Shown here: piece after piece, positions 50,288 to 63,590 of the stretch
Layout of the letters: the number at the start of each line of letters is the position of its first letter
Numbering within the stretch: the stretch's first letter is position 1
Origin: Geomonas sp. RF6
GTDB taxonomy: Bacteria > Desulfobacterota > Desulfuromonadia > Geobacterales > Geobacteraceae
Direction of reading: 5' to 3'
DNA length: 64,000 bases
Assembly (NCBI RefSeq): GCF_021044625.1
Contig: NZ_CP087999.1
Coordinates: forward strand, 4,857,001 to 4,921,000
Notes under the pieces: model-generated
What the model was told of the DNA's origin: nothing
Database searches by the model: none
Seen by the model: only the letters and a program-made list of their open reading frames with translations
Made by a program: the position numbers and the translations under genes

Positions 50288-51355
50288 CTATCGAGTGCGG
50301 CTCTGTCCGAGCCCATGACCCGCGAGCACCGCGACACCGAGGAGCACCGCGAGCTTCCCGGCCAGCGGAACCCCTGCCGTGGTAGCCCCCAGCCCCAGAG
50401 ACTGCACCAGCGCGCCCCCGAGAAGCATCCCCACCGTAAGAAGCCCCGCGTCGGTGTCGCCTTCGCCGGCCTTCACGAGCTGCCTGAAGGGGCACCCCCC
50501 CACCAGCGTCGCGGTCCATCCGACAAGCCCCATCCCCAGAAAACTCCAGAGATGCTCCACGTGCGCCCCCGGCTGCCCCGCCAGGCCGGGATGGAATCTC
50601 CCTGCTGCCACGCTTGCAGCGAATGCCGAGAGCGCAAAAGCGAGGACGCCGTAAAAGAGGTACCCTCTCCAGCGCAGGACGAAGAGATCGCGAATCCCCC
50701 CGGTGATGCAGAAACGGCTGCGCTGAGCGAGGGCACCGAGAACGACCGATCCTGCCAATGACGCCGCCCAGGGGGCGTGCTGGGAACCGCTCCCCATGGT
50801 GGAAAAGGAGATCATGCCTGGGCGCCCAACCACAAGCGCCAGAAGCGCCAGCGCTGCGGCAGGGATGAGAATGCCGCTCGCGCCCGGCTGCGGGGCGCCG
50901 TGGGGAAGTTCCGCGCCGCGCGCCAGCCCGGCGGTGCCGACCCATACGCCGGCGATGAGGCCGGCGACGCCGGCGAGTGCGCCGAGATCACCGGCTCCCA
51001 GCCTCAGCAGGAGCTTTATAGGGCAGCCGATAAAGACGCCGCAGCCTACCATCAGGAGGATGCCGGCAAAGAGACGGGAAAGGGGCGCGCTGCCGCCGCG
51101 CGTGCGGAATTCGCGGAAAAAGAGGGCACTGAGAAAGGCGCCGAGGACAAAGCCGGAGAGCTCCGGCCTCAGGTACTGCATTCTGCTGTTGTCGTGCAGC
51201 CCCAGCCCGCCGGCGACATTTTCCATGAAGCAGGAGACGCAGATCCCCGAGTTCTCCGGGTTCCCCAGGACAGCGAGGAGGACGCCGAGGGCTCCGAGGG
51301 CGACACCGCACGCCACCACCAGCCACAAATGCCTGTCGCGCAGCGTCACTCGCAC
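50288..51355 (-). CDS. YedE-type transporter (putative selenium/sulfur importer)
   Basis: 355 residues, nearly all hydrophobic, about ten membrane segments. The family motifs SGICVSCFMENVAGGLGLH, MQYLRPELSGFVLGAF, IGCPIKLLLRLGAGD, RSRFCITGGIRDLF and VGGCPFRQLVKAGEGD all contain the conserved cysteines of YeeE/YedE (DUF395) permeases. The NxxNxGICVSCF opening is what I associate with the branch proposed to handle selenium, but this is not proven. The start overlaps the previous gene by 10 bases. Confidence 0.82.
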   Translation of the reverse strand: MRVTLRDRHLWLVVACGVALGALGVLLAVLGNPENSGICVSCFMENVAGGLGLHDNSRMQYLRPELSGFVLGAFLSALFFREFRTRGGSAPLSRLFAGILLMVGCGVFIGCPIKLLLRLGAGDLGALAGVAGLIAGVWVGTAGLARGAELPHGAPQPGASGILIPAAALALLALVVGRPGMISFSTMGSGSQHAPWAASLAGSVVLGALAQRSRFCITGGIRDLFVLRWRGYLFYGVLAFALSAFAASVAAGRFHPGLAGQPGAHVEHLWSFLGMGLVGWTATLVGGCPFRQLVKAGEGDTDAGLLTVGMLLGGALVQSLGLGATTAGVPLAGKLAVLLGVAVLAGHGLGQSRTR

Positions 51356-51888
51356 CCCCCGGCCAGGCGGCTTCTGAGGTAGTTCACGTCCTTCAGCGAC
51401 CGTGCGGCAGAAACGTTTTCGGGATGAGCGCGAACCTTAGCCCCGACGGAGGAGAGCCCCTCCTGCGCCACCTTCTCGATAAGGGCTCGTCTGGAGAGCG
51501 GGCTTTTCTGCTCGAGGTACTCGCCATTTAGCCGCACACCCTGTACGAGAGTGGCCAGCGACTCCTCCAGCGCCCCCATCCGGTACAAAAGCTCCCCCTT
51601 CAGGATGAAGCCGTGCGCCTCGGCAGGGTAGCTGCGCATCAGCTCGTCAAGCTTGAAGATCGCAGTCGGCAGGTCCCCCTTCTCGACCAGCGCCTGCACC
51701 GGCCCGTAAATCTTTTGGAGCAGGGCCCCCCGCGCCTGGTCCGCCATCTCCCGCTCGACTGCACGATCTATGGAGGCGCGCCCAGCGTCTTCCTTCGGCC
51801 TCCCCTCCTCTCCATAGAGAAGCGCGCCCGCTCCTGTCAGGGCGAACGCGAGTAGGCTCCAGAGTATTTTGCGGTAGGCGTTCTTCAC
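51346..51888 (-). CDS. TPR-like protein with N-terminal signal/anchor
   Basis: 180 residues. A single hydrophobic segment (ILWSLLAFALTGAGALLYG) followed by helical repeats of TPR type: TAIFKLDELMRSYPAEAHGFILKGELLYRMG and ALEESLATLVQGVRLNG. It starts four bases after the PhnD-like gene and overlaps yedE, so it belongs to the same transcript. Probably a periplasmic scaffold. Confidence 0.7.
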   Translation of the reverse strand: MKNAYRKILWSLLAFALTGAGALLYGEEGRPKEDAGRASIDRAVEREMADQARGALLQKIYGPVQALVEKGDLPTAIFKLDELMRSYPAEAHGFILKGELLYRMGALEESLATLVQGVRLNGEYLEQKSPLSRRALIEKVAQEGLSSVGAKVRAHPENVSAARSLKDVNYLRSRLAGGCE

Positions 51889-51892
51889 AGGA

Positions 51893-52807
51893 TCAAAACT
51901 TCTGGTACGGCGGCATGTTGACCCGGCGCGCCATGTCGCGGATCGGGTTGTAGTCGCTGTCCAAAAGCTCCTCGTATCCGTCGACCCAGGCCCCCTTCAG
52001 GACCTTTACTTCCTCACCGTCGACTTTCACCGTGTCGGAAGGCTTCAGCTCCAGGAGGGCCTTGCGCACCTTCGCCACCAGGTCAGGGTCGGTCCCTTTC
52101 GACGCGCCGAAGGTGCAGTAGGGGATTATCGGGCTCTGCCCCAGAACGACGAAGCTGTCGGGGGAGATGCGCCCTTCCCGGGTCATTTCCTCAAGGTCGA
52201 GAGCAGGCGCTGCGGCGACATCGTACTGACCGAAAAGGACACCGTAGATGACCTTCTCGTGCTTGAAGGAGCCGGAGGGGATGGAGTAGTAGGCGAGGTT
52301 CTTCTCCGGGTCGATACCGGACCGGAGCATCAGGTCGTACTCGGCAAGGTAACCTGTGGGTGCGAGCATGGGGCCAAAGCCCATCCTTTTGCCGCGGATG
52401 TCGGAGAGCTTCGTTATGCCGCTCCCGGCGCGGGCGATGATGGCGCCTGCGGTGCGCGAGCCGTACTGCCCACGCTTTTCGGAGGCGAGCAGTGAAAGGG
52501 AGTAGCGCTCCTTGAGGATGATGTAGAGGAGAGAGTTGGTATGGGTGAAGGCGAATTCGCCGCTCTTGAAGCGCTTCTCGAAGTCCTGGGTGTCGACAGG
52601 TACGAGGGTGAAATCGGCGCCGGTCTTTTCCGAGAGGTAGCGAGTGAGCGGGGTGAAGCGCTGCAGCGTCTCCTTCTCGTTGTTGCAGATCATAAAGCCG
52701 ATCTTTACCGCCTGGTGTTTCGACTCGGTGCGGCACCCCGCGGTGCAGAGGAGAGAGAAGAGGCAGAAAAGGAGCGGCGCCAGGCGCCAGTTCAGCGGTA
52801 GCTTCAT
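51893..52807 (-). CDS. PhnD-like periplasmic substrate-binding lipoprotein
   Basis: About 304 residues from ATG 52807 (MKLPLNWRLAPLL); earlier in-frame starts exist. Signal with lipobox LLCTAGC. Type II binding fold: KIGFMICNNEKETLQRFTPL, YLSEKTGADFTLVPVDTQDF, SDIRGKRMGFGPMLAPTGYL and YSIPSGSFKHEKVIYGVLFGQYDVAAAP. Such proteins bind phosphonates, phosphite or other oxyanions. No ATPase or permease follows, so it may serve the YedE-type transporter or act as a sensor (inference). Confidence 0.8.
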   Translation of the reverse strand: MKLPLNWRLAPLLFCLFSLLCTAGCRTESKHQAVKIGFMICNNEKETLQRFTPLTRYLSEKTGADFTLVPVDTQDFEKRFKSGEFAFTHTNSLLYIILKERYSLSLLASEKRGQYGSRTAGAIIARAGSGITKLSDIRGKRMGFGPMLAPTGYLAEYDLMLRSGIDPEKNLAYYSIPSGSFKHEKVIYGVLFGQYDVAAAPALDLEEMTREGRISPDSFVVLGQSPIIPYCTFGASKGTDPDLVAKVRKALLELKPSDTVKVDGEEVKVLKGAWVDGYEELLDSDYNPIRDMARRVNMPPYQKF

Positions 52808-52832
52808 AACAGGAATCATCCTCAAAGGTTAC

Positions 52833-52947: not shown

Positions 52948-53829
52948 TCAGCCGCACCCCGGGTCCGCGGCGTCGAAGGTGAGCGCTGCAGCATACCCGC
53001 GGCCACGGCAGCCGCCGAAGCAGGTCGGAAGAGCAGCGCACTCCAGGCATTCCTCAGGGAAGCGCCGCAGTGCCTTTCGCACCTCACGCTTTTGCGGAGA
53101 CTTCGCAATGGCGGAAAAAGTCGTATCCCCGAGATTTCCAAGGGCGTATGGAAGCGCGGGACAAGGACACACCTCTCCTTCCGGCGTGACAAAGAGCATG
53201 CTGTTCGCCGCCTGGCATCCCCCCTCCGGAAAGGCCTTGTCCGGGTAAAAGATCTTCCACAGGAAAGGATCGTGTATCGTCAGCCGCAACCCCCGATCGA
53301 GCTCCATTTCTCGCAGTGCATCTGCCAGGAACCGGCGCTCGGCTGGGTTCAGGAAGAAGACGCCGCGCCCCGCCACCGCCCTCGCAATCGGAAAGCTCAA
53401 TTCTCCGATGCCATGCTGAAGGCAAAACCGGATGATCTCCGGGATCTCGCGGCAGTTGCCTGCGTGGAGCGGCAGGCTGACACCTGTGGGCATTCCCGCA
53501 TCCAACACGGAGCGGTCCAGTGAGCAGAGCTCCTCGATACCGCTCACATCCAGAAGGAGGGATTTCACCTTCAGCCGCGAAACGGTCTCCAGCGAGCGCG
53601 CAACCGTGTCGCCGGAGAGAGTGAGATTTACCGCGATCCTCTCCTTCGCAAGCCTTTCCACGACCTGTATCGTCGCAGCGGAGACCTCAGCTCCCGGCTG
53701 CCAGAGATTGAGCGCAAGGACCTGCAGCGCCACGAGTTCGTCGCATAATGCGAGGTGATCAAACGACGGGGCAGCGGGGGGCGCCGGCAGATCCCAATAC
53801 ACCCTGATCGGAACGCTCAGCTCCATCAT
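52948..53829 (-). CDS. SPASM-domain partner of a radical SAM enzyme, radical SAM cysteines lost
   Basis: 293 residues. The N-terminal two thirds looks like a radical SAM barrel (SVPIRVYWDLPAPP, LNLTLSGDTVARSLETV, LLLDVSGIEEL, PTGVSLPLHAGN) but has no CxxxCxxC. The C-terminal SPASM cysteines are complete: GGCQAANSM, GEVCPCPALPY, CLECAALPTCFGGCRG and a final DPGCG. It starts two bases after the radical SAM gene. This is the arrangement I associate with the GeoRSP SPASM protein; the likely role is a cluster-bearing or substrate-binding partner of the enzyme. Confidence 0.85.
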   Translation of the reverse strand: MMELSVPIRVYWDLPAPPAAPSFDHLALCDELVALQVLALNLWQPGAEVSAATIQVVERLAKERIAVNLTLSGDTVARSLETVSRLKVKSLLLDVSGIEELCSLDRSVLDAGMPTGVSLPLHAGNCREIPEIIRFCLQHGIGELSFPIARAVAGRGVFFLNPAERRFLADALREMELDRGLRLTIHDPFLWKIFYPDKAFPEGGCQAANSMLFVTPEGEVCPCPALPYALGNLGDTTFSAIAKSPQKREVRKALRRFPEECLECAALPTCFGGCRGRGYAAALTFDAADPGCG

Positions 53830-53830
53830 C

Positions 53831-54832
53831 TCAGGAGGCCCAGCAATGCGGGTCGGGGCTGTTCAGGTCGCCGGTGAGAGCAAGGGCGCGGGCACTGCAG
53901 CCGCCGAGGCAGTCTTCGTAGCTGCCGCAGGAGGCGCACTTTCCCGTCGCCGTCTTGTGGCGCATCCGGTACAGCACCTCGGATTCGTGCCACACGGCGG
54001 AGAGGTCATCCCGCAGGATGTTCCCGATAACCATGGGGATGAAGCCGCACGGGGTGATGTCGCCGTTGGTCTTGATGTTGAGGGAGAGTTTCCCGCACAC
54101 GCTCCCCTTCACCAGCGCGGGGTTTCGCTCCGGCCCGAGTGAGGAGATGATCGGGTCGTCCAGCGAGATCTCCACCCCCTGCGGCTGCGAACGGAGCGCC
54201 AGCGCCTTCCGGTAAAATTCCCGCCACTCCTCCGGATTGAGATCCAGGTCATCCTTGTTGGCAAGCCCGAGCCCCGAGCACTTGAAGTTGTGAAAGTTCA
54301 GCTGCTCCACGCCGCACTCCGTGGCGAGCGCCACGAGTTCCTCCACCTGCAGGTGGTTGATGCGGCAGATGACAGTGGAGATGGAGGTCTTTATCCCCAC
54401 CTCGCGCAGGTGGGCGAGCGCCTCGATGGCGCGGCGATGGCTGCCGGGGACGCCGCGGAATGAGTCATGCACTTCAGGGACGTGGCTGTCGATGCTGATC
54501 CCCACCTTGTAGAAGCCGAATTCCTTCAGCACCCGCGCCTGCTGAGCGTCAAGAAGGTAGCCGTTGCTGTTCATGGTGACGCGCATGCCGCAGCTGCGGG
54601 CAAAGGCCGCCAGCGACGGAAGGTCGTGCCGCAGCAAAGGCTCGCCGCCGCCGAAGTTCACTGCGAGGACTCCCGCCTTAGCCGCCTTCCCCATCGCCTG
54701 GCAGAGCTCGTCAAAGGAGAGCTCCTGGCTCTCGTCGCTCCTGCTGTAGCAGTGCTTGCAGCTGAAGTTGCAGCTGTTATTCACCGCCCAGTTTATGGTG
54801 AGCGGCGCCTTTATGGTCCATTCACTCCGCAT
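53831..54832 (-). CDS. Radical SAM/SPASM peptide-modifying enzyme (GeoRSP type)
   Basis: 333 residues from ATG 54832 (MRSEWTIKAPLTINWAVNN), which overlaps the PqqD-like gene by 11 bases; the upstream open frame is its antiphase. The radical SAM cluster motif is CNFSCKHC; VNFGGGEPLLR is the GGE motif and GISIDSHVPEVHD the strand-five region. The C-terminal SPASM domain has VCGKLSLNIKTNGDITPCGF, CASCGSYEDCLGGC and DPHC, enough for two auxiliary clusters as in PqqE and anSME. Such enzymes install crosslinks or other changes in ribosomally made peptides. A PqqD-like protein sits just upstream. Confidence 0.92.
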   Translation of the reverse strand: MRSEWTIKAPLTINWAVNNSCNFSCKHCYSRSDESQELSFDELCQAMGKAAKAGVLAVNFGGGEPLLRHDLPSLAAFARSCGMRVTMNSNGYLLDAQQARVLKEFGFYKVGISIDSHVPEVHDSFRGVPGSHRRAIEALAHLREVGIKTSISTVICRINHLQVEELVALATECGVEQLNFHNFKCSGLGLANKDDLDLNPEEWREFYRKALALRSQPQGVEISLDDPIISSLGPERNPALVKGSVCGKLSLNIKTNGDITPCGFIPMVIGNILRDDLSAVWHESEVLYRMRHKTATGKCASCGSYEDCLGGCSARALALTGDLNSPDPHCWAS

Positions 54833-55136
54833 GGCGCACGAACCCCTTCTGTGCGAGCTCCGCGAGGAAAGCGGAGACATCCTCAGCCAGGACCTCCGAC
54901 TCCACTTCGAACTCCTCTCCCAGAGCGGCCACGATCTCTTCCAGGGTGCGCCCGTCGCAAAGCTTCCACACCTCGGTGCCGAGAACATTGATGGAAAGGA
55001 TCGAGGAGTCGTCAAAAAGGAGAGCGGTGCCTACATCCTCCACATCCTCGCCACGCTCCAGCCCCGCCAGAGCCTCGTCGCGCGGCTCGTCCTCCTCACG
55101 CCACAGCACATCGGGATTTCTGTAGTAGCGCATCAT
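54822..55136 (-). CDS. PqqD-like peptide chaperone
   Basis: 104 residues. PqqD fold: RNPDVLWREEDE, SILSINVLGTEVWKLCDGRTLEEIVAALGEEFEV and VSAFLAELAQKGFV. PqqD proteins hold the precursor peptide leader and present it to the radical SAM enzyme. Its ATG overlaps the stop of the NosD-like gene by one base (TAATG), and its end overlaps the enzyme start by 11 bases, so the genes are tightly coupled. Confidence 0.9.
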   Translation of the reverse strand: MMRYYRNPDVLWREEDEPRDEALAGLERGEDVEDVGTALLFDDSSILSINVLGTEVWKLCDGRTLEEIVAALGEEFEVESEVLAEDVSAFLAELAQKGFVRHAE

Positions 55137-56104
55137 TACCTCCCGGAGACCTGCACCGGCTCCTTAAGGAACGGCTCGAACACGATGCGGGCAACGGTGG
55201 GATCACTTTCCTTGTCGTACAGGTGCGCCGCGATCTCGGTGCGGTCGGTGCTGCCAAACCAGTTCTGCGCTGCCGCCACGTCAGACTCCTGCTCGTCGGC
55301 TATCGCCATGTCGTACTCGGAGTTCTTGTAGATATTGTTGTGGTGGATCCGGGTACCTTCGCTGCGGTAGATGTAGATCCCCTTGTAGTTGCCGGTGATC
55401 TCGTTGCCGCTCACCTCGCCGAGCGATTTCTCCTTCGCCCAGAGCCCGAAGAACTTGTTGTCCTTGATGCTGTTGCCGGTGATGGCCACGCGGGAGGCGC
55501 GGAAGTTGATCCCCCCCTTGTTGTCGTGGATGGAGCTCCCCTTCACCGTCAGATCCGATTCCTGCCCCCACCAGGGGACCCCCTGAACCTCGTCTTCCTT
55601 CCTGATGCTTATCGCGACCGCGTTCTTCGCGAGCTCGCTGTGCTGCACCTCCACCTGGGCCCCGTGGGAGTGGATCCCGTTGTAGGCATAGAGGACGCGG
55701 CAGTAGTCGAGCACATTCCCGCTGCTCCCGAGGAAGTTGAGGGCACCCCAGTCAGCGGGCTGCGGCTCCTTTTCTGCGGAGGTAAAGACGATCATCTTCT
55801 CCGCGGTGCCGCGCGCCACCAGTTTGCCGCGCACGATAAGCTCGGCCTGGGCGTAGTACGGCACCTTTCCGCCGAAAAGGTTGCGGTCGCTCTGGGCGTC
55901 GATGCGATTGAACTTCACGATAGTCCCGGGAGCAACGGTCAGGGTCACGCCGGGGGGAACGTAAACGTCTCCCGTCACCTCCACCTCACCCGACCATACC
56001 GTGTCCTTGGTGAGCGTTTCCTTCCCCACCTGGAGAGGTGCAGCGTTGCAGTCGAGAGCGGCGAACAGGGTCAAGGCAAGGAGAGCCAGGATTCTTTTTC
56101 TCAT
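55136..56104 (-). CDS. Exported NosD-like parallel beta-helix protein
   Basis: 322 residues with a signal peptide (LLALTLFAALDCNAAP). It opens TVWSGEVEVTGDVYVPPGVTLTVAPGT, the same module found three times in the 835-residue protein at 60027, and then runs through NosD-type repeats (GNSIKDNKFFGLWA, GNEITGNYKGIYIYRS, HHNNIYKNSEYDMAI) ending in AAQNWFGSTD. It overlaps the TPR gene by four bases and PqqD by one. Confidence 0.87.
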   Translation of the reverse strand: MRKRILALLALTLFAALDCNAAPLQVGKETLTKDTVWSGEVEVTGDVYVPPGVTLTVAPGTIVKFNRIDAQSDRNLFGGKVPYYAQAELIVRGKLVARGTAEKMIVFTSAEKEPQPADWGALNFLGSSGNVLDYCRVLYAYNGIHSHGAQVEVQHSELAKNAVAISIRKEDEVQGVPWWGQESDLTVKGSSIHDNKGGINFRASRVAITGNSIKDNKFFGLWAKEKSLGEVSGNEITGNYKGIYIYRSEGTRIHHNNIYKNSEYDMAIADEQESDVAAAQNWFGSTDRTEIAAHLYDKESDPTVARIVFEPFLKEPVQVSGR

Positions 56105-56661: not shown

Positions 56662-57500
56662 TGCTGAGCCAGGTGACTAAGGGACGAGTAAAAGGTGACG
56701 GCGCCGACGACGGTAACCACCACGGCGCTGGCGAGGGAAACCTTCTGCGCGTAGCGCTCCGTATCGACGAAACGGGCGGCGGCCTTCACGCTGTGCACCA
56801 TGACGAGACCGATGGCAACGAGCGAACAGGCGAGGCCGACGCTGAAGACGAGCACCAGCGCGAGCCCCTTTCCGAGGGTTCCGGCCGAGACGGCAGCAAG
56901 CAGGATAGCGAGAGCAGCAGGGCACGGCACGATGCCGCCGGAGATGCCGAGAAGAAGAAGGCCGATCGGGCTGGTCCCTTCCGCGGCAGGCGCGTGCGCA
57001 TGGGAGTGGCCATGGGAATGGTCACCGTCGCTGCCATGGGAATGTCCGTGGAAAAGCTTTCGCAGGAAACCGTGAGCGTGCCCGTGGTCATGCGTGTGCC
57101 CGTGGTCATGCGTGTGCCCGTGGTCATGCCCGTGACCGTGGGAGTGGTCGTGCGTGTGCCCATGGGAGTGGCCGTGCATCGCCCCCCAGCGGGACTTCAG
57201 CATCCATACCCCCATCCCGAGGATGAGGAGACTGGCGACGATGCCGAGGTAGCCGTGCACCTGCTGCTCACTGAAGTACTGCGCGGTAAATTTGGCGAGA
57301 AGGCCGAGAAGGATGATGCTGAAGCAGTGGGTGAAGGTGACGGTGAGGCCAAGAACGAGGGCATCGATACTGCGTCCCCGCGATCCGACGAGATAAGCTG
57401 CCACCACCGTCTTGCCGTGACCGGGCTCAAGGGAGTGGGCGACACCGAGAAAGAATGCCGCGATATAGATGCTGAACCAACCGATGCTAACGCTTTCCAT
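56658..57500 (-). CDS. NicO/HoxN-type nickel/cobalt transporter with His-rich loop
   Basis: 280 residues from ATG 57500 ([15 protein letters not shown]), preceded by GAAGGTG. Membrane protein with [19 protein letters not shown] and [13 protein letters not shown], then a very His-rich cytoplasmic or periplasmic loop of about 55 residues (repeated HDHGH and HGHSH), then [18 protein letters not shown]. This is the RcnA/NicO layout for Ni2+/Co2+ movement. It overlaps the ResB-like gene by 14 bases. Direction of transport cannot be told. Confidence 0.88.
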
Positions 57501-58407
57501 AACACCTTCGAACCAAAAGCAGCACTGCACCAACACCGAGCAGGGCAAGCCCCGCGAACACCAGCGGTTTTCCCGGATCGCGCACGATCTGGATCCCCGC
57601 GTAGATCCCTTCTTGATCCCTGTCGCTCTGCACGTGGAAGAACTGGAGCCCCTGCCACGAGAAGGGCGCATTTACCTCGCTCGTACCCTCGGCGAGGACC
57701 CGGCTCTCGCGCAGCAGGGCGAGGTCCACCCAGGTCCTTTTGAGCGCCGGAGTGCGGTAGGCGACCAAGCGGAAGCGGTACGGAAAGGAAGAGGCGATAG
57801 TCCCTTCATCTGCCGTATCGATCTTCCCGAGCTCTGTCCCCTTTTCTGCCACGCTCAGGGAGAGCCTTTTCCCCTGCAGATGGAGCTCGTTTGCCGTGAC
57901 GGTAAAACGGTCGAAGCGGAAGCTCTCGCCGGTGCGCACGGTGAAGAGGGCAACCTTCTCGCTCCCGCGCAGTACACCGACCTGAACCGGCACCGGATAA
58001 TATTCCGAATTAACCTTCCGCACGGCCAGATCAAAGCCGAGCGGCAGTTCCTTGTTCACGTCCCAGCGGTATGCAGCGCCGGTGCTGCGCCCTTCGTGGA
58101 CATTGACGGTGGAGACATATCCCCTGGCGGAGATCACCGCACCGGCGAGGACCAGGACGACTGCCGCGTGGATCACCAGGACCGGCAAAGGGAGGCGCCT
58201 CCCCTTCCCGACCGTGCAGACTGCCGTCGCCATCCCCAGTGCCCCGAGAAGAAGGAGAAAGGGTGGTGACGAGTAGATCGCGCGGCTCTCGCCGAAGGTG
58301 CCCGGAAGTGCCAGGAGGCTGAGCACGAGAAAGAGGATGATGGCGAACTCGGTGGAAGCGAGCCAGCGCACTCCCCTTTTCACGCCGCTGCCGGAGCCCT
58401 GCTGCAC
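57487..58407 (-). CDS. ResB-like cytochrome c biogenesis membrane protein
   Basis: 306 residues, starting with GTG two bases after the previous stop. Membrane segments near residues 20-40, 48-66, 73-96 and 280-300 enclose a soluble domain with [31 protein letters not shown] and a C-terminal [30 protein letters not shown], as in ResB/Ccs1. No CcsA is seen in the window, so it may have another job here, for instance in haem or redox maturation of the exported products. Confidence 0.78.
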
Positions 58408-58408
58408 C

Positions 58409-58957
58409 TTAGATCAGCTTGCGCGACTTGAGGAAGTCCTTTGCAGCCTTCTTCCCCTTCTCCGACTTCAGGAGCTTTGCGAAGCTGTCGTCGTTCACGA
58501 CGCCGGAGAGCTTGTTGAGAAGCTTCGGCAGAGCGGGGAGGTTCCCGATCGTCTCCTGCGAGATCACCGGTGCCGCGTACTGGCTCACCCCGAAAGGCTC
58601 GAGCCATATCAGATTGAGGGACTTGCGAAACTCTTTTTTCGCCGCCTCGTAGGCAACCTTGCCGCTACCCTCGCCACCCTTTTCCACCGCCTTCAGGCCG
58701 CGCTCGGGGGTCTCGACGATCACGCCGACCTCACCCTTCTTCACCGCGCTGTACAGCTCGCGGGACTCCTTGAAGGGCACCACTTTCACTGTCGTGCCGG
58801 TGCGCTCGTTCACCAGCACGGAAATCATCTCGGCAAAGAGCAGATCACCAGGAGAGTTGACGACCCCGACATACAGTGTCTTACCGACACAGGCACCGGC
58901 AATTTGCTGTAAGCCAAGAAGGGATACTATCAACAGCAGCAAAATGATCTTTTTCAA
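58409..58957 (-). CDS. Small periplasmic solute-binding protein (PhnD/OpuAC-like)
   Basis: About 182 residues. TTG 58957 has AAGAGGTGA at ideal spacing; a GTG nine bases earlier is the alternative. A signal peptide ends near IAGAC. The body TLYVGVVNSPGDLLFAEMISVLVNERTG and KVVPFKESRELYSAVKKGEVGVIVET resembles one lobe of a type II binding protein. It is shorter than transport receptors, so it may be a truncated or single-purpose binder. Confidence 0.72.
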   Translation of the reverse strand: MKKIILLLLIVSLLGLQQIAGACVGKTLYVGVVNSPGDLLFAEMISVLVNERTGTTVKVVPFKESRELYSAVKKGEVGVIVETPERGLKAVEKGGEGSGKVAYEAAKKEFRKSLNLIWLEPFGVSQYAAPVISQETIGNLPALPKLLNKLSGVVNDDSFAKLLKSEKGKKAAKDFLKSRKLI

Positions 58958-58995
58958 CGCCTTCACCTCTTAATTGGATTCTATTTATACAACAC

Positions 58996-59724
58996 TCAAT
59001 CAAGGCTCTTACTGTTATCTTTTGGCTCTTCCAAGGATGCGATACTATAGTTTAGTTGAAGATCATTAGCAATAACAATCTGTTCGGACGTCACGTTGAA
59101 CGTGGTGCAAGAGGCCTCGTCGGGGGGGAAGGCAGTCGCTCCACCAATGCAGTATCTTCCGGGCGGAAGGTAGATGCTGTATCGCCCCTCCCGGTCGGAG
59201 AGGGTCGAAAAGTAGTCGGGGATCGCGCCAGTCGTTCCCTCTCTGCGAGCGAAGGCGTAGGCGCCGACGACAGGCTTCCCCTCCTTGCCGAGGAGGCGTC
59301 CCGCGACCTCGCGGCAGCCGTCGTCTTCCTCTTTTTTCAGCCGTGCCGCCTCCCTCACGTTGAGGACGCTGAAGTCTACGGAGGACTCTGCGCCGGCGTC
59401 GACATCGGTCTCGCGCGCCTCCCCGGAATGCTTTCCGCCGAAGGCGAGCGGGCCGAACCTTTCCCCCGTCCGCAGGCGCGCCACGAGCCAGTATTTGCCG
59501 GAGGGAAGGACGAGGCGGTAGATGCCGGCCCCATCGGCGGGCGCAGAGATGAAATCCGCCGGTCTGCGCGTGGCGGCGGAGTCGTAGGCGAAGACCTCGG
59601 CCCCCGGGACGGGGTGGCCGCCTCCGTCGAGGATGTGGCCGGTGAGGATCCCCTCTGCGCCTGCGATGGACGGTGCGGGAAAGGAGACAATGGACGCAAC
59701 GACAAGAAGTAAAAGCAGGAGCAA
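58996..59724 (-). CDS. Exported carboxypeptidase-regulatory-like protein
   Basis: About 242 residues if started at TTG 59724; the start is uncertain. A hydrophobic signal (LLLLLLLVVASIVSFPAPSIAGAEG) precedes two beta-sandwich regulatory-like domains: LTGHILDGGGHPVPGAEVFAYD ... IYRLVLPSGKYWLVA and VAGRLLGKEGKPVVGAYAFARR ... YSIYLPPGRYCIGG. Upstream the frame stays open through an S element and a DUF559 remnant up to 60030, so an insertion has probably replaced the original 5' end. It lacks the usual N-terminal lysines. Confidence 0.65.
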   Translation of the reverse strand: MLLLLLLVVASIVSFPAPSIAGAEGILTGHILDGGGHPVPGAEVFAYDSAATRRPADFISAPADGAGIYRLVLPSGKYWLVARLRTGERFGPLAFGGKHSGEARETDVDAGAESSVDFSVLNVREAARLKKEEDDGCREVAGRLLGKEGKPVVGAYAFARREGTTGAIPDYFSTLSDREGRYSIYLPPGRYCIGGATAFPPDEASCTTFNVTSEQIVIANDLQLNYSIASLEEPKDNSKSLD

Positions 59725-59764
59725 AGATCCCGGAATGCCGGCTGTGCCAAAGGAGCAGCCACTA

Positions 59765-59803
59765 CGTCCCCCCCTTTGCGAAGGGGGGACAGGGGGGATT
59801 TGC
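59765..59803 (-). repeat. S element, reverse orientation
   Basis: CCCCCCTTTGCGAAGGGGGG hairpin followed by ACAGGGGGGATTTG. With 59917-59953 it brackets a DUF559 remnant. Confidence 0.85.
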
Positions 59804-59817
59804 TTTTTCGTGGCACT

Positions 59818-59913
59818 CCGTGAATGAGACCACAACAGTTGCTCGGCATCTGTCACAGGCTTTTGGAGTTGGCGGGATCGTGCCTTTGTCTGGTGGTCGT
59901 ATGACAAAGGAAA
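59818..59913 (-). pseudogene. DUF559 endonuclease N-terminal remnant
   Basis: Translation gives FPLSYDHQTKARSRQL followed by VTDAEQLLWSHSR, closely matching the N-terminal block of DUF559 proteins (compare MTDAERAVWRILRDR at 8416-8793). The PD-ExD catalytic part is absent, so only about 32 codons remain. It is framed by inverted S elements. Confidence 0.72.
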
Positions 59914-59916
59914 GAC

Positions 59917-59953
59917 AAATCCCCCCTGTCCCCCCTTCGCAAAGGGGGGAACG
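59917..59953 (+). repeat. S element, forward orientation
   Basis: AAATCCCCCCTGTCC then the CCCCCCTT/AAGGGGGG hairpin and AACG; the tail CGGGTTCTCGTGCAG is shared with the copy at 18466. Confidence 0.85.
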
Positions 59954-60026
59954 CGGGTTCTCGTGCAGCGCTTCGTGGAAATGTACTTCAGGTTCCCCTG
60001 ACTTTCCCGATACTGGCACCTCGACA

Positions 60027-62534
60027 TCATTTCTCTGCCCCCGCCCTCAATTTCGGCGCGCTGCTACCTACGCCGGAGAGCGCCTGTGAGACCACAGGCT
60101 GGTAGCGCACCGTGCCGATACCTGGCTCACGCCCTGCATCATAGATCGATTCCGCCGGCTCAGCACTCCCCCACCAGTTTCCCGGCGCGGCCACATCCTC
60201 GTTATTGAAGTCGCCCAGCCGCATATTGTAGTCTGCGTTGCCGGAGAGGTTGTTCCCTTCCACCTGCAGCCCGCTCCCTTTTTCCCGTACGAAGATCCCC
60301 ACACCGTTTCCGGTGAAAACATTCCCGCTTATGACCGCGTTGCCGCGAAACGAGCGCACCCCGATCCCGTTTTCGGTGAAGACCGAGCCGCTGATGGTGA
60401 CCGGGCCGCTTCGAAACCTCATCCCGCCGTCGTTGCCGTGAAAGAGCGAGTCCTTTATCGAGAGCTTCGTGAAATGGCTGTGGACCCCCCACCCCGCGTA
60501 TTCGAAGACGCAGCCGGTGAAAGAGCTGCCATCGGCGTGCTCAAGCAGGATCTCGTCCCATGCGCCCCCCTCCTTGCGCCCGGCGGAGGTGAAGAGGACG
60601 GGGGTGGCGGCGTCTCCTGCTGCAACGATCCTGCCGGTGACGGAGAGCCCCCCCCCTGCGCCAAAGCCGACGGTCGTGCCGCGGGTGACGGTGAGGCTCG
60701 AGCCTGTCGGAACTGCGACCTTTCCCGCGACCGACAGCGTGCCGCGCCACGTCGTCTCGCGCGGCACGAAGGAGAGCGGCCAGGGGAAAAGCAGCGGTTG
60801 GGAAGCGGGAGCGGAGGCCAGTACCGTCCCGGCGGAGGCGGGTGCTGTGCAGATGGAGCTTCGCGCGTCGCTCCCCCCCCACCAGTTGCGCGGCGCCGCC
60901 ACCTCACCCTTCCCTTCCGGATCGATGGCGCACAACCCGTTCGCCGCGAAGTTGTTCCCCTCGATCGTCCCGCTAAAGGACTGGATGCCGATGCCTCGCT
61001 CGCCGTTGTCGCTCACCAGGTTCCCGCTGATCGCGCCGCGCACTTCGTTCAAATTCACCCCGTTGATCCCGTTGCCGGAGATGAAGTTGCCGCTTATGAG
61101 GAGGTTGTCGCCGTTTTTAATCGATGCGCCTATCTCCAGGTTGTTGCTGATCGCATTGCGCTCGAAGCTCGGAAAGGACGCGTCCTGCACCAGAATCCCG
61201 AAGCGGTTCTCCTCCACCAGGTTCTCCTCGAAGACCGTCGCCCCCTCCCTGATCCTGATCCCTTCCCTCACGTTGCGCATGATCCTGTTGCCGCGCGCCT
61301 TCAGCCGGACCCGCAGGAAGTTCGCCCCCTGCTGGTTTTCGCTCACGCTGTTTTCGTCGAAGGAGAGGTCCGAGTCCCTCCCCTGCACCGCGCTCTTGTT
61401 GCCGAAAAAGCGGTTGCCGCGCACGATGACGGTCGCCTCCTGGAACTGCACCGCGCGATAGCAGTTGCTGATCTCGGAGTCGGTGAGGGCGACCCTGGAG
61501 AAGTGAAAATGCAGCCCGCGATAGGCGTCCTCGATGATGCAGTGCTCGAAGAGGTTCCAGGGGCCGGCGCTGTTCATGATGTTGATGGAGTCCCAGGAGC
61601 CGCGCCGGGAGCGGTCTGCGCCGCGAAAGAGGATCGGGGAGGCGGCGCTCCCCTTTGCCACGACGATCCCCTGCACGAGGAGGCCGTTCTCGCCGATGCC
61701 GTCACCGTTGGTATCGCGGAAGGTGAACTCGACCGTCGTCCCCGGAAGGATCACCAGCCTGCTACCCTGTGGCACCCGTAGCGTCCCGTCCACCCGGACC
61801 ATCCCGCGCCACACCGTCTCCCCCGCCAGAACCTCGTCGTGGTAGACCCGGACGTCGGCGCTCTCCTTCCGGGGCTGGCGCTGGGGTGGATTCTTCACGG
61901 CAGTAACTGCTCCTCCCCTTTCCGCAGCACTGAATTCGTCCTTTTTCCTGTTGCCGCGAAGCTCCACCAATCCCTTCGGACGGGGAGCGCCGGAAAGAAG
62001 GAGAAGGCCATAGTCGTTCCCGATCGCGCTGTTCCGTGCGCCGCTGGCAGTACTCTCCCGCCCCTGCAGCACGATGCCGTACCGGTTTCCGGTAACGGTG
62101 GAACCGTCGATACGGAGGCGGCCGCGCAGGAGGTAGACGCCGCTTTCGGCGGACTCGATGCGGCAAGCAGCAAGCCGGCTCTCGCCGCCGTCGACAATGA
62201 TGCCGGCCCAGGCGCTCTCCTTCCTCTCCCCCCCCGCCTGGAAGAGGATGGGGTGTCGCTCGTCCCCCTCGGCGCGCAGCACGCCGCGCACGGTGATCTC
62301 GGTCAGGGGTGAGAGGTACTCCGGGTCGGTCTTGGAGCTTTCCGCAGCGCCCACTTTCACCGTGGTCCCCGGCGCGATGGTGAGGGTAACGCCATCGGGG
62401 ACGAGGATGTCTTCCTCGACGATCACTTCACCTTTCCAGGTGGTGTCGGAGGTGAGAACGCGGGCGTGCGCCGTCAGCGGGATGAGTTGCAGCAGAAGGG
62501 AAACGGCGATAAAAACGAGGAGACGTGCAGCCAT
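60027..62534 (-). CDS. Large exported right-handed beta-helix protein with three modules
   Basis: 835 residues with a signal peptide (LLVFIAVSLLLQLIPLTAHA). Three modules each begin with a T-x-W-x-G strand and a VxxGxxLTIxPGTTV line: TTWKGEVIVEEDILVPDG, TVWRGMVRVDGTLRVPQG and TTWRGTLSVAGKVAVPTG. Modules end in the NosD-like marks APRNWWGGSD and APGNWWGSAE. Long runs of GNxxxxNxxGI repeats lie between. Probably a surface or periplasmic scaffold or polysaccharide-active protein; catalytic residues cannot be assigned. It lies just past the terminator of the short peptide. Confidence 0.87.
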   Translation of the reverse strand: MAARLLVFIAVSLLLQLIPLTAHARVLTSDTTWKGEVIVEEDILVPDGVTLTIAPGTTVKVGAAESSKTDPEYLSPLTEITVRGVLRAEGDERHPILFQAGGERKESAWAGIIVDGGESRLAACRIESAESGVYLLRGRLRIDGSTVTGNRYGIVLQGRESTASGARNSAIGNDYGLLLLSGAPRPKGLVELRGNRKKDEFSAAERGGAVTAVKNPPQRQPRKESADVRVYHDEVLAGETVWRGMVRVDGTLRVPQGSRLVILPGTTVEFTFRDTNGDGIGENGLLVQGIVVAKGSAASPILFRGADRSRRGSWDSINIMNSAGPWNLFEHCIIEDAYRGLHFHFSRVALTDSEISNCYRAVQFQEATVIVRGNRFFGNKSAVQGRDSDLSFDENSVSENQQGANFLRVRLKARGNRIMRNVREGIRIREGATVFEENLVEENRFGILVQDASFPSFERNAISNNLEIGASIKNGDNLLISGNFISGNGINGVNLNEVRGAISGNLVSDNGERGIGIQSFSGTIEGNNFAANGLCAIDPEGKGEVAAPRNWWGGSDARSSICTAPASAGTVLASAPASQPLLFPWPLSFVPRETTWRGTLSVAGKVAVPTGSSLTVTRGTTVGFGAGGGLSVTGRIVAAGDAATPVLFTSAGRKEGGAWDEILLEHADGSSFTGCVFEYAGWGVHSHFTKLSIKDSLFHGNDGGMRFRSGPVTISGSVFTENGIGVRSFRGNAVISGNVFTGNGVGIFVREKGSGLQVEGNNLSGNADYNMRLGDFNNEDVAAPGNWWGSAEPAESIYDAGREPGIGTVRYQPVVSQALSGVGSSAPKLRAGAEK

Positions 62535-62581: not shown

Positions 62582-62620
62582 AAAAAAAGAGGCGCCAGCA
62601 TACAATGCCGGCGCCTCTTT
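62582..62620 (-). terminator. Terminator directly after the 20-residue peptide gene
   Basis: Minus strand AAAGAGGCGCC pairs with GGCGCCTCTTT, extended by two further pairs, and is followed by seven T residues. It begins 17 bases after the peptide stop codon. Confidence 0.93.
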
Positions 62621-62637: not shown

Positions 62638-62700
62638 CTAGCAGGGATGTACCACAGAAGCGCCCACGATTCTCGGACGGACGTATTTTTTCTTTTTCAT
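62638..62700 (-). CDS. 20-residue Cys-terminated peptide, candidate radical SAM substrate
   Basis: Minus-strand frame MKKKKYVRPRIVGASVVHPC followed by TAG. GGGAGGTGA, an almost complete complement of the 16S anti-Shine-Dalgarno, lies five bases before the ATG and is formed by the last two codons and stop of the upstream gene, so translation is coupled. A strong terminator follows at once. Four lysines, a Tyr-x-x-Pro segment and a His-Pro-Cys end resemble a minimal leader plus core. It lies in the same-strand cluster as PqqD, radical SAM/SPASM and SPASM-partner genes about 7.5 kb downstream. That it is their substrate is an inference. Confidence 0.75.
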   Translation of the reverse strand: MKKKKYVRPRIVGASVVHPC

Positions 62701-62705
62701 GCTTA

Positions 62706-63590
62706 TCACCTCCCTTTCGTTTCGTTGTTGATGCCTTCAGCCTGCGGCGTTACCGCCCTAGCGGATCCCGGTCCCCTGCCGGCAAATCTTTTCGCCTTCA
62801 CCACCACACCCTTCACCAGTTCACCCTTCTTCACGGTGACCGCCTGGCTCTCCTTCTGCCCGATATTTCCCACGACTTCGCCGGCAACCGGTGCGGAGCC
62901 GCCATAGACGCTGCGGACCTTCAGGTAGTAGGTCCCCCCTTCACCGACCCGCAAGAGGAACCGGCCGTTGGGGCTCGAAGGGTACGAGGTGTACAACGGC
63001 CTGCCCACGGTCTCGGCACTGCGGTAGGCAAATACCAGCGCGTCGCGCACCGGCTTCCCCTCTTCCGACACGACCGTTCCCTCCACTGCGGTGATCCCTT
63101 TGCGATAGCCGGTCCCGCCGCTCTTGAATGGCTGCGCGCCGGAGAGGGAGCCAAGATCCATGTCTCCCGGCACCTTCACCTGGTAGCGCACCGGGTCACC
63201 CTTTTCGTCCACGCTGGTGAAGTAGTAGTCACCTTCCTGCGGCGGACCGACGAGGCGTCCCGAAAGCCTCTTCACCGCCCCGAGGTAGTAGCTCCCCTCC
63301 GGAAGCTTGAGGGAGAAGCGACCCGCCTCGTCGAGCTGCTTCATGAAATCCGGGACGCGCCAGTACCTGTCGTGGGCCGGTGCCGGACCGGTCGCCGCGT
63401 TGAAGAAGTACACCACTCCTCCGTCGAGGGGCGTTTGACCGTCGATAAGGATGCGGCCGGTCACGGTGCTCCCCTTCATCTCGGCAGGCTGCACCGGACG
63501 CTGGGGCGCCGACGGCGGCGTGATCGCAACTGCCGCCACAGGGGCTGCGAGGATAAGGAGCGCTGGAAGAATCTTTTTCAGGTAGTTCAT
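62706..63590 (-). CDS. Exported carboxypeptidase-regulatory-like protein
   Basis: 294 residues. Signal peptide (KKILPALLILAAPVAAVAI). Two to three regulatory-like beta-sandwich domains: VTGRILIDGQTPLDGGVVYFF ... FSLKLPEGSYYLGAV and VEGTVVSEEGKPVRDALVFAYR ... FLLRVGEGGTYYLKV, the second close to domains in the protein at 58996. GGAGAGGG precedes the ATG. Its last codons double as the ribosome-binding site of the 20-residue peptide. Confidence 0.85.
   Translation of the reverse strand: MNYLKKILPALLILAAPVAAVAITPPSAPQRPVQPAEMKGSTVTGRILIDGQTPLDGGVVYFFNAATGPAPAHDRYWRVPDFMKQLDEAGRFSLKLPEGSYYLGAVKRLSGRLVGPPQEGDYYFTSVDEKGDPVRYQVKVPGDMDLGSLSGAQPFKSGGTGYRKGITAVEGTVVSEEGKPVRDALVFAYRSAETVGRPLYTSYPSSPNGRFLLRVGEGGTYYLKVRSVYGGSAPVAGEVVGNIGQKESQAVTVKKGELVKGVVVKAKRFAGRGPGSARAVTPQAEGINNETKGR

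Follow-up and report, generated by a model that had tools for sequence, protein, structure and literature searches.

A widespread 20-residue peptide ending in His-Pro-Cys as the probable precursor of the GeoRSP radical SAM system

The stretch of DNA analysed here (the window, 64,000 nt) carries on its minus strand a gene of only 20 codons, a size that ordinary gene finders skip. An earlier, sequence-only reading had proposed this frame together with a Shine-Dalgarno sequence formed by the last bases of the gene before it and a terminator shortly after the stop codon, and all three were found in the sequence. The frame is exactly as proposed, with the ATG at 62698-62700 and the TAG at 62638-62640. 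The Shine-Dalgarno sequence, GGGAGGTGA, overlaps the 3' end of this earlier gene, including its TGA stop (62706-62708), and lies 5 nt before the ATG of the peptide gene. The terminator hairpin begins about 17-20 nt past the peptide stop and folds with -22 kcal/mol without the T run. The window has 282 ATG frames of 15-30 codons, and 10 of them are preceded by a strong Shine-Dalgarno sequence, so this signal alone is weak evidence; the peptide gene stands far above chance because it is conserved across genomes, as described below. The genome from which the window was taken, a single contig of 5.26 Mb from the Geobacter family, contains one copy of the peptide. Features of the locus are collected in Table 1.

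Table 1. Features of the peptide locus and of the GeoRSP gene cluster in the window
Feature	Coordinates	Strand	Basis or remark
Putative precursor peptide gene, 20 codons + TAG, MKKKKYVRPRIVGASVVHPC	62638..62700	(-)	Frame, family conservation, pattern scan
Shine-Dalgarno sequence GGGAGGTGA	62706..62714	(-)	Sequence
Intrinsic terminator, 12-bp GC-rich stem then T7	62582..62617	(-)	Downstream of peptide gene
Preceding gene, N-terminal signal-like stretch and carboxypeptidase-regulatory-like domain (PF13620)	62706..63590	(-)	
Large exported beta-helix (NosD-like) protein	60027..62534	(-)	Downstream of peptide
OpuAC-like periplasmic binding protein	58409..58966	(-)	Conserved companion
ResB-like membrane protein	57487..58407	(-)	Homologue L197:15543-16469 matches PF05140
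Second exported beta-helix (NosD-like) protein	55136..56104	(-)	Adjoins PqqD
GeoRSP PqqD-family peptide chaperone / RRE	54822..55136	(-)	TIGR04302, 147.8 bits (cut-off 100)
GeoRSP radical SAM/SPASM enzyme	53831..54832	(-)	TIGR04303, 580.6 bits (cut-off 400)
GeoRSP SPASM-domain protein	52948..53829	(-)	TIGR04304, 296.5 bits (cut-off 300)
PhnD-like periplasmic binding protein	51893..52825	(-)	Conserved companion; L204 homologue has PF12974
TPR-type membrane-anchored protein	51346..51888	(-)	Conserved companion
YedE-family sulfur/selenium transporter	50288..51355	(-)	TIGR04112, over cut-off

Some 7.5 kb from the peptide gene and on the same strand lie three genes that match TIGR04302, TIGR04303 and TIGR04304, a set that NCBIfam names GeoRSP; the naming already implies a peptide substrate. 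The peptide of the window is thus located outside the enzyme cassette. The PDB entries most similar to a structure model of the PqqD-type protein (pLDDT 93.9) were TbiB1 (the best match; 5V1V, which includes the TbiA leader), another lasso B1 protein with its leader, and PqqD. In the radical SAM enzyme the CX3CX2C motif reads CNFSCKHC; its likely start at 54832 overlaps the end of the PqqD gene, while the mechanically called frame opens at an upstream TTG. The third protein matches its model over the full length and in the expected place, with a score just under the cut-off. Its predicted fold is that of a radical SAM-SPASM protein, with anSME, PqqE and SuiB among the best matches, and the CX3CX2C motif was not found in its sequence. 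Since it combines a predicted radical SAM-like fold with the absence of this motif, the protein is probably a non-catalytic partner (a pseudo-enzyme) or an electron relay.

Between the peptide and the PqqD gene are genes for exported beta-helix, carboxypeptidase-regulatory-like, OpuAC-like and ResB-like proteins, and the PhnD-like, TPR and YedE genes are found downstream of the GeoRSP trio. At the 5' end of the frame 58996-60030, a C/G-run element, CCCCCCTTTGCGAAGGGGGGACAGGGGGGATT, forms a 43-nt inverted pair (59765-59807 and 59911-59953, 93% complementary, 103 nt apart). This element is possibly a small mobile repeat.

With the 20-mer as tblastn query, 13 of the 48 family genomes were found to hold relatives, six copies at most in any one; the match in G016, counted among the 13, is at chance level. 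These relatives share a common anatomy, in which a start codon with a Shine-Dalgarno sequence is followed by a Lys-rich start, the sequence Y-x-x-P-[KR]-[VI]-V-G-S-[AS]-x-V-H-P-C and the stop codon. A search of the GTDB contigs of 84,980 species with a DNA pattern covering the conserved portion of the frame then gave at least 118 stretches, against about one expected by chance from the information content of the pattern. Among the matches listed, nearly all sources were Desulfuromonadia or Nitrospirota. Within the class, 84 of 277 genomes matched the pattern, and no genome matched the reversed control. With a profile (A1) built from 30 peptides, the peptide was found in 95 of the 277 genomes; the family also occurs in Nitrospirota. 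A single planctomycete match, on a contig of Phycisphaerae bacterium CS2-K091 (L099), was present among the matches listed. The HD-domain neighbour of this peptide is the same as in the Desulfuromonadales loci L102, L136 and L138, and the contig is probably mis-binned.

Members of the family are 17-21 residues long with the consensus MKKxxYxxP[KR][VI]VGSSxVHPC-stop, and nearly all of the frames have a start codon and a Shine-Dalgarno sequence. The Tyr, the Pro and the C-terminal His-Pro-Cys are essentially invariant, and the residues next to the stop codon are the most conserved part of the peptide. The Tyr of YxxP[KR][VI] was found in 140 of 142 members and the Pro in all 142; these counts are partly fixed by the search patterns, and both residues are also kept in the profile and tblastn matches. 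Copies in G003 in which the middle has drifted (VSWGT, VTESTS) still retain YxxP[KR] and HPC. Conservation of the peptide with freely varying third bases, which the sequence-only reading had named as supporting evidence, was observed: third codon positions are saturated (pS 0.78) and positions 1 and 2 are held (pN 0.22), and the other reading frames of the same DNA show the opposite pattern of substitution. The choice of loci partly biases pN and does not affect pS. A terminator-like signal follows 74 of 139 family members, compared with 30 of 400 random 80-mers.

Presence of the peptide was closely tied to that of the maturase genes, the other association that had been put forward for checking. 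Of the 277 class genomes, 84 have both the peptide and the GeoRSP PqqD, 2 the PqqD only, 11 the peptide only and 180 neither (Fisher p about 7e-56, without correction for phylogeny); presence and absence of the two vary within families. Only TIGR04302 matches well apart from the weak tail were counted, giving 86 PqqD-bearing genomes, 84 of which thus carry the peptide. When 49 genomes were picked solely by the peptide pattern, the GeoRSP radical SAM enzyme scored over its cut-off in 36, and near-cut-off or contig-edge copies were present in 6 more. The peptide gene of 34 genomes, belonging to several families, is found 1030-1227 nt beyond the PqqD gene on the same strand, the order being PqqD-rSAM-peptide-SPASM with the peptide directly behind the radical SAM gene. 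This position in a maturase cassette is the usual place for a precursor gene. Most of the 11 genomes with the peptide and without PqqD are incomplete assemblies, but G288 is 97% complete. No peptide was detectable in the PqqD-bearing genomes G030 (100% complete) and G275 (99%), where PqqD and YedE are present without a detectable HPC peptide (G030:C1:3706756 and G275:C138:9798); either a diverged precursor or decay of the system could account for these two cases.

The conserved frame, the co-occurrence, the operon linkage, a leader motif and the predicted PqqD fold form the basis on which we regard the peptide, with high confidence, as the GeoRSP precursor. The fuller reading, in which the peptide is a RiPP precursor that is bound by the PqqD-type protein and modified at its HPC end by the radical SAM/SPASM enzyme, is in our judgement very probably right, with binding and modification inferred. 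The proposal that the peptide is the substrate of the radical SAM/SPASM/PqqD cluster is thus supported by its conservation, its co-occurrence with these genes and the cassette in 34 genomes; modification has not been shown. PqqD binding, the modification, its site and the trimming of a leader are all inferences made without biochemistry. The motif [Y/W]xxPx[L/V/I/F/A] is read by discrete lasso RREs (PMC13381572), and W/Y/LxxP signals are common to RREs of the PqqD/FusE/StsC type (PMC12710340). An RRE-readable motif of this kind, YxxP[KR][VI], is present in the peptide family, as judged from sequence and with no binding data. Because YxxPx[VI] is an RRE motif and the PqqD model resembles leader-bound RREs, a division into a leader of about MKKxxYxxPxVVG and a core of about SxxVHPC is plausible, with the first 13 residues as the minimal leader and the last seven as the core. 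For the peptide of the window, the proposed leader is MKKKKYVRPRIVG, with the YxxPx[VI] motif, and the proposed core ASVVHPC.

In the mechanism that we propose, the PqqD-type protein would bind YxxPx[VI] in the N-terminal part of the peptide and present the C-terminal SxxVHPC to the radical SAM/SPASM enzyme. This enzyme, aided by the SPASM partner without a SAM cluster, would alter the invariant His-Pro-Cys end, probably at Cys20. Tyr6, His18 and Cys20 had been named as candidate sites of modification; His18 and Cys20 (and Pro19) remain as the likely modified end, while Tyr6 fits better as the PqqD recognition signal. The stop codon follows immediately on the invariant His-Pro-Cys, which suggests that the C-terminal Cys is where the chemistry takes place, for instance a thioether, oxidative decarboxylation or sulfur insertion, though this too is inference. 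Oxidative decarboxylation occurs in mycofactocin. Neither a leader protease nor an exporter dedicated to the system was recognised.

A YedE-family transporter is found in 83 of the 86 GeoRSP genomes, and at 16 loci the gene after that of the SPASM protein encodes a cysteine desulfurase. Both observations suggest that sulfur or selenium is involved; more speculatively, the YedE transporter might supply the element, together in some clades with the cysteine desulfurase. A selenocysteine at the position of the C-terminal Cys was rejected, as a TGA-at-Cys pattern matched none of the 277 genomes. Dependence on selenium was likewise not upheld: selD is present in 244 of the 277 class genomes and is therefore uninformative, and one GeoRSP genome, G111 (99% complete), has no selD match. 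The window YedE matches TIGR04112, a selenium-transporter model. GeoRSP-linked YedE proteins match it with E of about 1e-115 to 1e-125, compared with 1e-142 to 1e-148 for selD-adjacent YedE. Because G111 lacks a selD match and the GeoRSP-linked YedE proteins score lower, sulfur is at least as likely as selenium; TIGR04112 may lump two functions.

Among known systems, GeoRSP itself is the closest, since the window cluster is the same system and the precursor peptide its missing part. No precursor family for GeoRSP is present in NCBIfam 20.0 or Pfam; the only match, in Pfam, was a sub-threshold one of DUF5972 to the leader part of the peptide. We found no paper on GeoRSP or on such a Geobacter/Desulfuromonas peptide in the open-licence literature. 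Mycofactocin (MftA/MftB/MftC) and PQQ (PqqA/PqqD/PqqE) share with it a short precursor, an invariant C-terminal core, a PqqD-type RRE and a radical SAM/SPASM enzyme, and, as expected for a cofactor rather than an antibiotic, a core kept across distant lineages (compare PMC3023750). In contrast to both, the GeoRSP core ends in HPC rather than in VY or an E..Y pair, the precursor is shorter (17-21 aa) and exists in several dispersed copies beside secreted-protein genes, and the system has an extra SPASM partner and the YedE/PhnD companions. The peptide is not an MftA, having HPC in place of the Val-Tyr end and a radical SAM enzyme that scores 166.7 bits against TIGR03962 (cut-off 265), nor a PqqA, as it has no Glu and the enzyme reaches only 128 bits against TIGR02109 (cut-off 381). 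Lasso and LPP leaders read by discrete RREs (FusB1, TbiB1, LppB) have the YxxPx[L/V/I] motif and the RRE fold in common with GeoRSP, whose maturase is a radical SAM enzyme and which has no lasso cyclase or B2 protease. A lasso peptide does not fit, in that no asparagine-synthetase-like cyclase or transglutaminase-like protease domain was found among the cluster proteins scanned. The thio(seleno)oxazole RiPPs (SbtA/SbtM) also involve a Cys-containing peptide modified by a radical SAM enzyme (for GeoRSP the modification is inferred), and the GeoRSP cluster has a YedE-family transporter; the GeoRSP enzyme, however, is of a different family, and there is no TGA at the Cys codon in the 277 genomes.

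Most copies of the peptide are not in a cassette and instead adjoin secreted-protein genes, mostly about 20-150 nt behind another gene on the same strand; the preceding gene in the window is a neighbour of the typical kind. Of the 109 upstream genes that could be scored, 35 encode at least five CxxCH motifs and 4 more encode one to four; at the same loci, five or more are encoded by 18 of 670 other genes. One upstream protein has up to 52 when spaced variants are counted. The remaining upstream genes mostly encode exported proteins bearing FnIII, carboxypeptidase-regulatory-like, CRTAC1/FG-GAP or lectin-like domains; an NtrC-type regulator and an HD-domain protein are among the exceptions. The neighbourhood, which is the only argument available, suggests joint production of the modified peptide and giant secreted proteins, and a role for the peptide outside the cell as a cofactor, ligand or attached group. 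Export of the peptide, or its attachment to an exported protein of the cluster as had been suggested, remains an inference, with which the secreted and multiheme cytochrome neighbours agree. More speculatively, the product may be a small redox-active or metal-binding peptide that works in the cell envelope alongside multiheme cytochromes and large secreted proteins. Our confidence as to what the product does is low to moderate, its chemistry and function being unproven. A broader and only tentative proposal, possible but one that we would not expect to hold in full, is that GeoRSP makes a further ribosomal-peptide cofactor after PQQ and mycofactocin, a His-Pro-Cys redox or metal-binding group working outside the cell with multiheme cytochromes and giant secreted proteins, with precursor copies placed beside the genes they serve and co-made with them, and a phage having picked up the gene.

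Three other explanations of the peptide can be considered. It might be an arrest or attenuator leader peptide, at whose HPC the ribosome stalls to control the terminator and the downstream gene, and no enzyme substrate at all. The peak of conservation beside the stop codon, the frequency of terminators after the peptide (74/139) and the same-strand beta-helix gene downstream in the window would all fit. Such a peptide should open an operon, whereas a co-directional gene precedes it in 98 of 106 cases and the downstream gene is oppositely oriented in 24 of 115; nor would it be expected to track the PqqD and radical SAM genes so closely or to carry an RRE motif. A stand-alone copy also exists in a phage record (see below). 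We consider attenuation very unlikely, the orientation of the neighbours in particular disfavouring it. That most copies are beside secreted-protein genes and outside the cassette, and that modification is unproven, leaves room for an unmodified small protein that helps to fold, secrete or anchor its secreted neighbours, linked to GeoRSP only indirectly through a shared envelope process. Its place within the PqqD-rSAM-peptide-SPASM cassette in 34 genomes, the YxxPx[VI] leader motif and its presence in 84 of 86 PqqD genomes make this improbable.

An antimicrobial would be the remaining candidate, the peptide being the precursor of a secreted, bacteriocin-like RiPP such as a sactipeptide or lasso peptide. 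Enzymes of the same types and the same recognition motif do serve antimicrobial RiPPs (PMC13381572), but the core here is nearly invariant between two phyla, unlike antimicrobial cores, and no immunity gene, peptidase-transporter or lasso cyclase was seen among the cluster proteins scanned; there is little to recommend this explanation.

If the peptide is the GeoRSP precursor, an orphan radical SAM system gains a substrate, and its chemistry becomes testable with a 20-residue peptide and three proteins. The GeoRSP enzymes were already catalogued and the class of RiPPs with an RRE and a radical SAM/SPASM enzyme is known; the novelty lies in an extremely short precursor with an invariant HPC end, in copies dispersed next to genes for secreted proteins and in the copy carried by a phage. 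The family is common to many metal-respiring bacteria, where its genes are often neighbours of those for huge exported electron-carrying proteins. Through the extra copies, the inferred modification of the peptide becomes associated with extracellular cytochromes and other giant secreted proteins across Geobacterales, Desulfuromonadales and Nitrospirota; no report of such an association was found in the open-licence literature.

The phage-borne copy, MKKYMKPKVVGSSSVHPC, is a perfect family member at L213:6695-6751 (-) in the virus record IMGVR_UViG_3300002231_000542. It was the only match in all viral contigs, a search of a phage database gave no further copies, and the GeoRSP radical SAM enzyme is absent from this record. 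MKKYMKPKVVGSSSVHPC has a Shine-Dalgarno sequence, an apparent promoter of its own and a hairpin downstream, and the 78-kb contig also carries ribonucleotide reductase and helicase-like genes.
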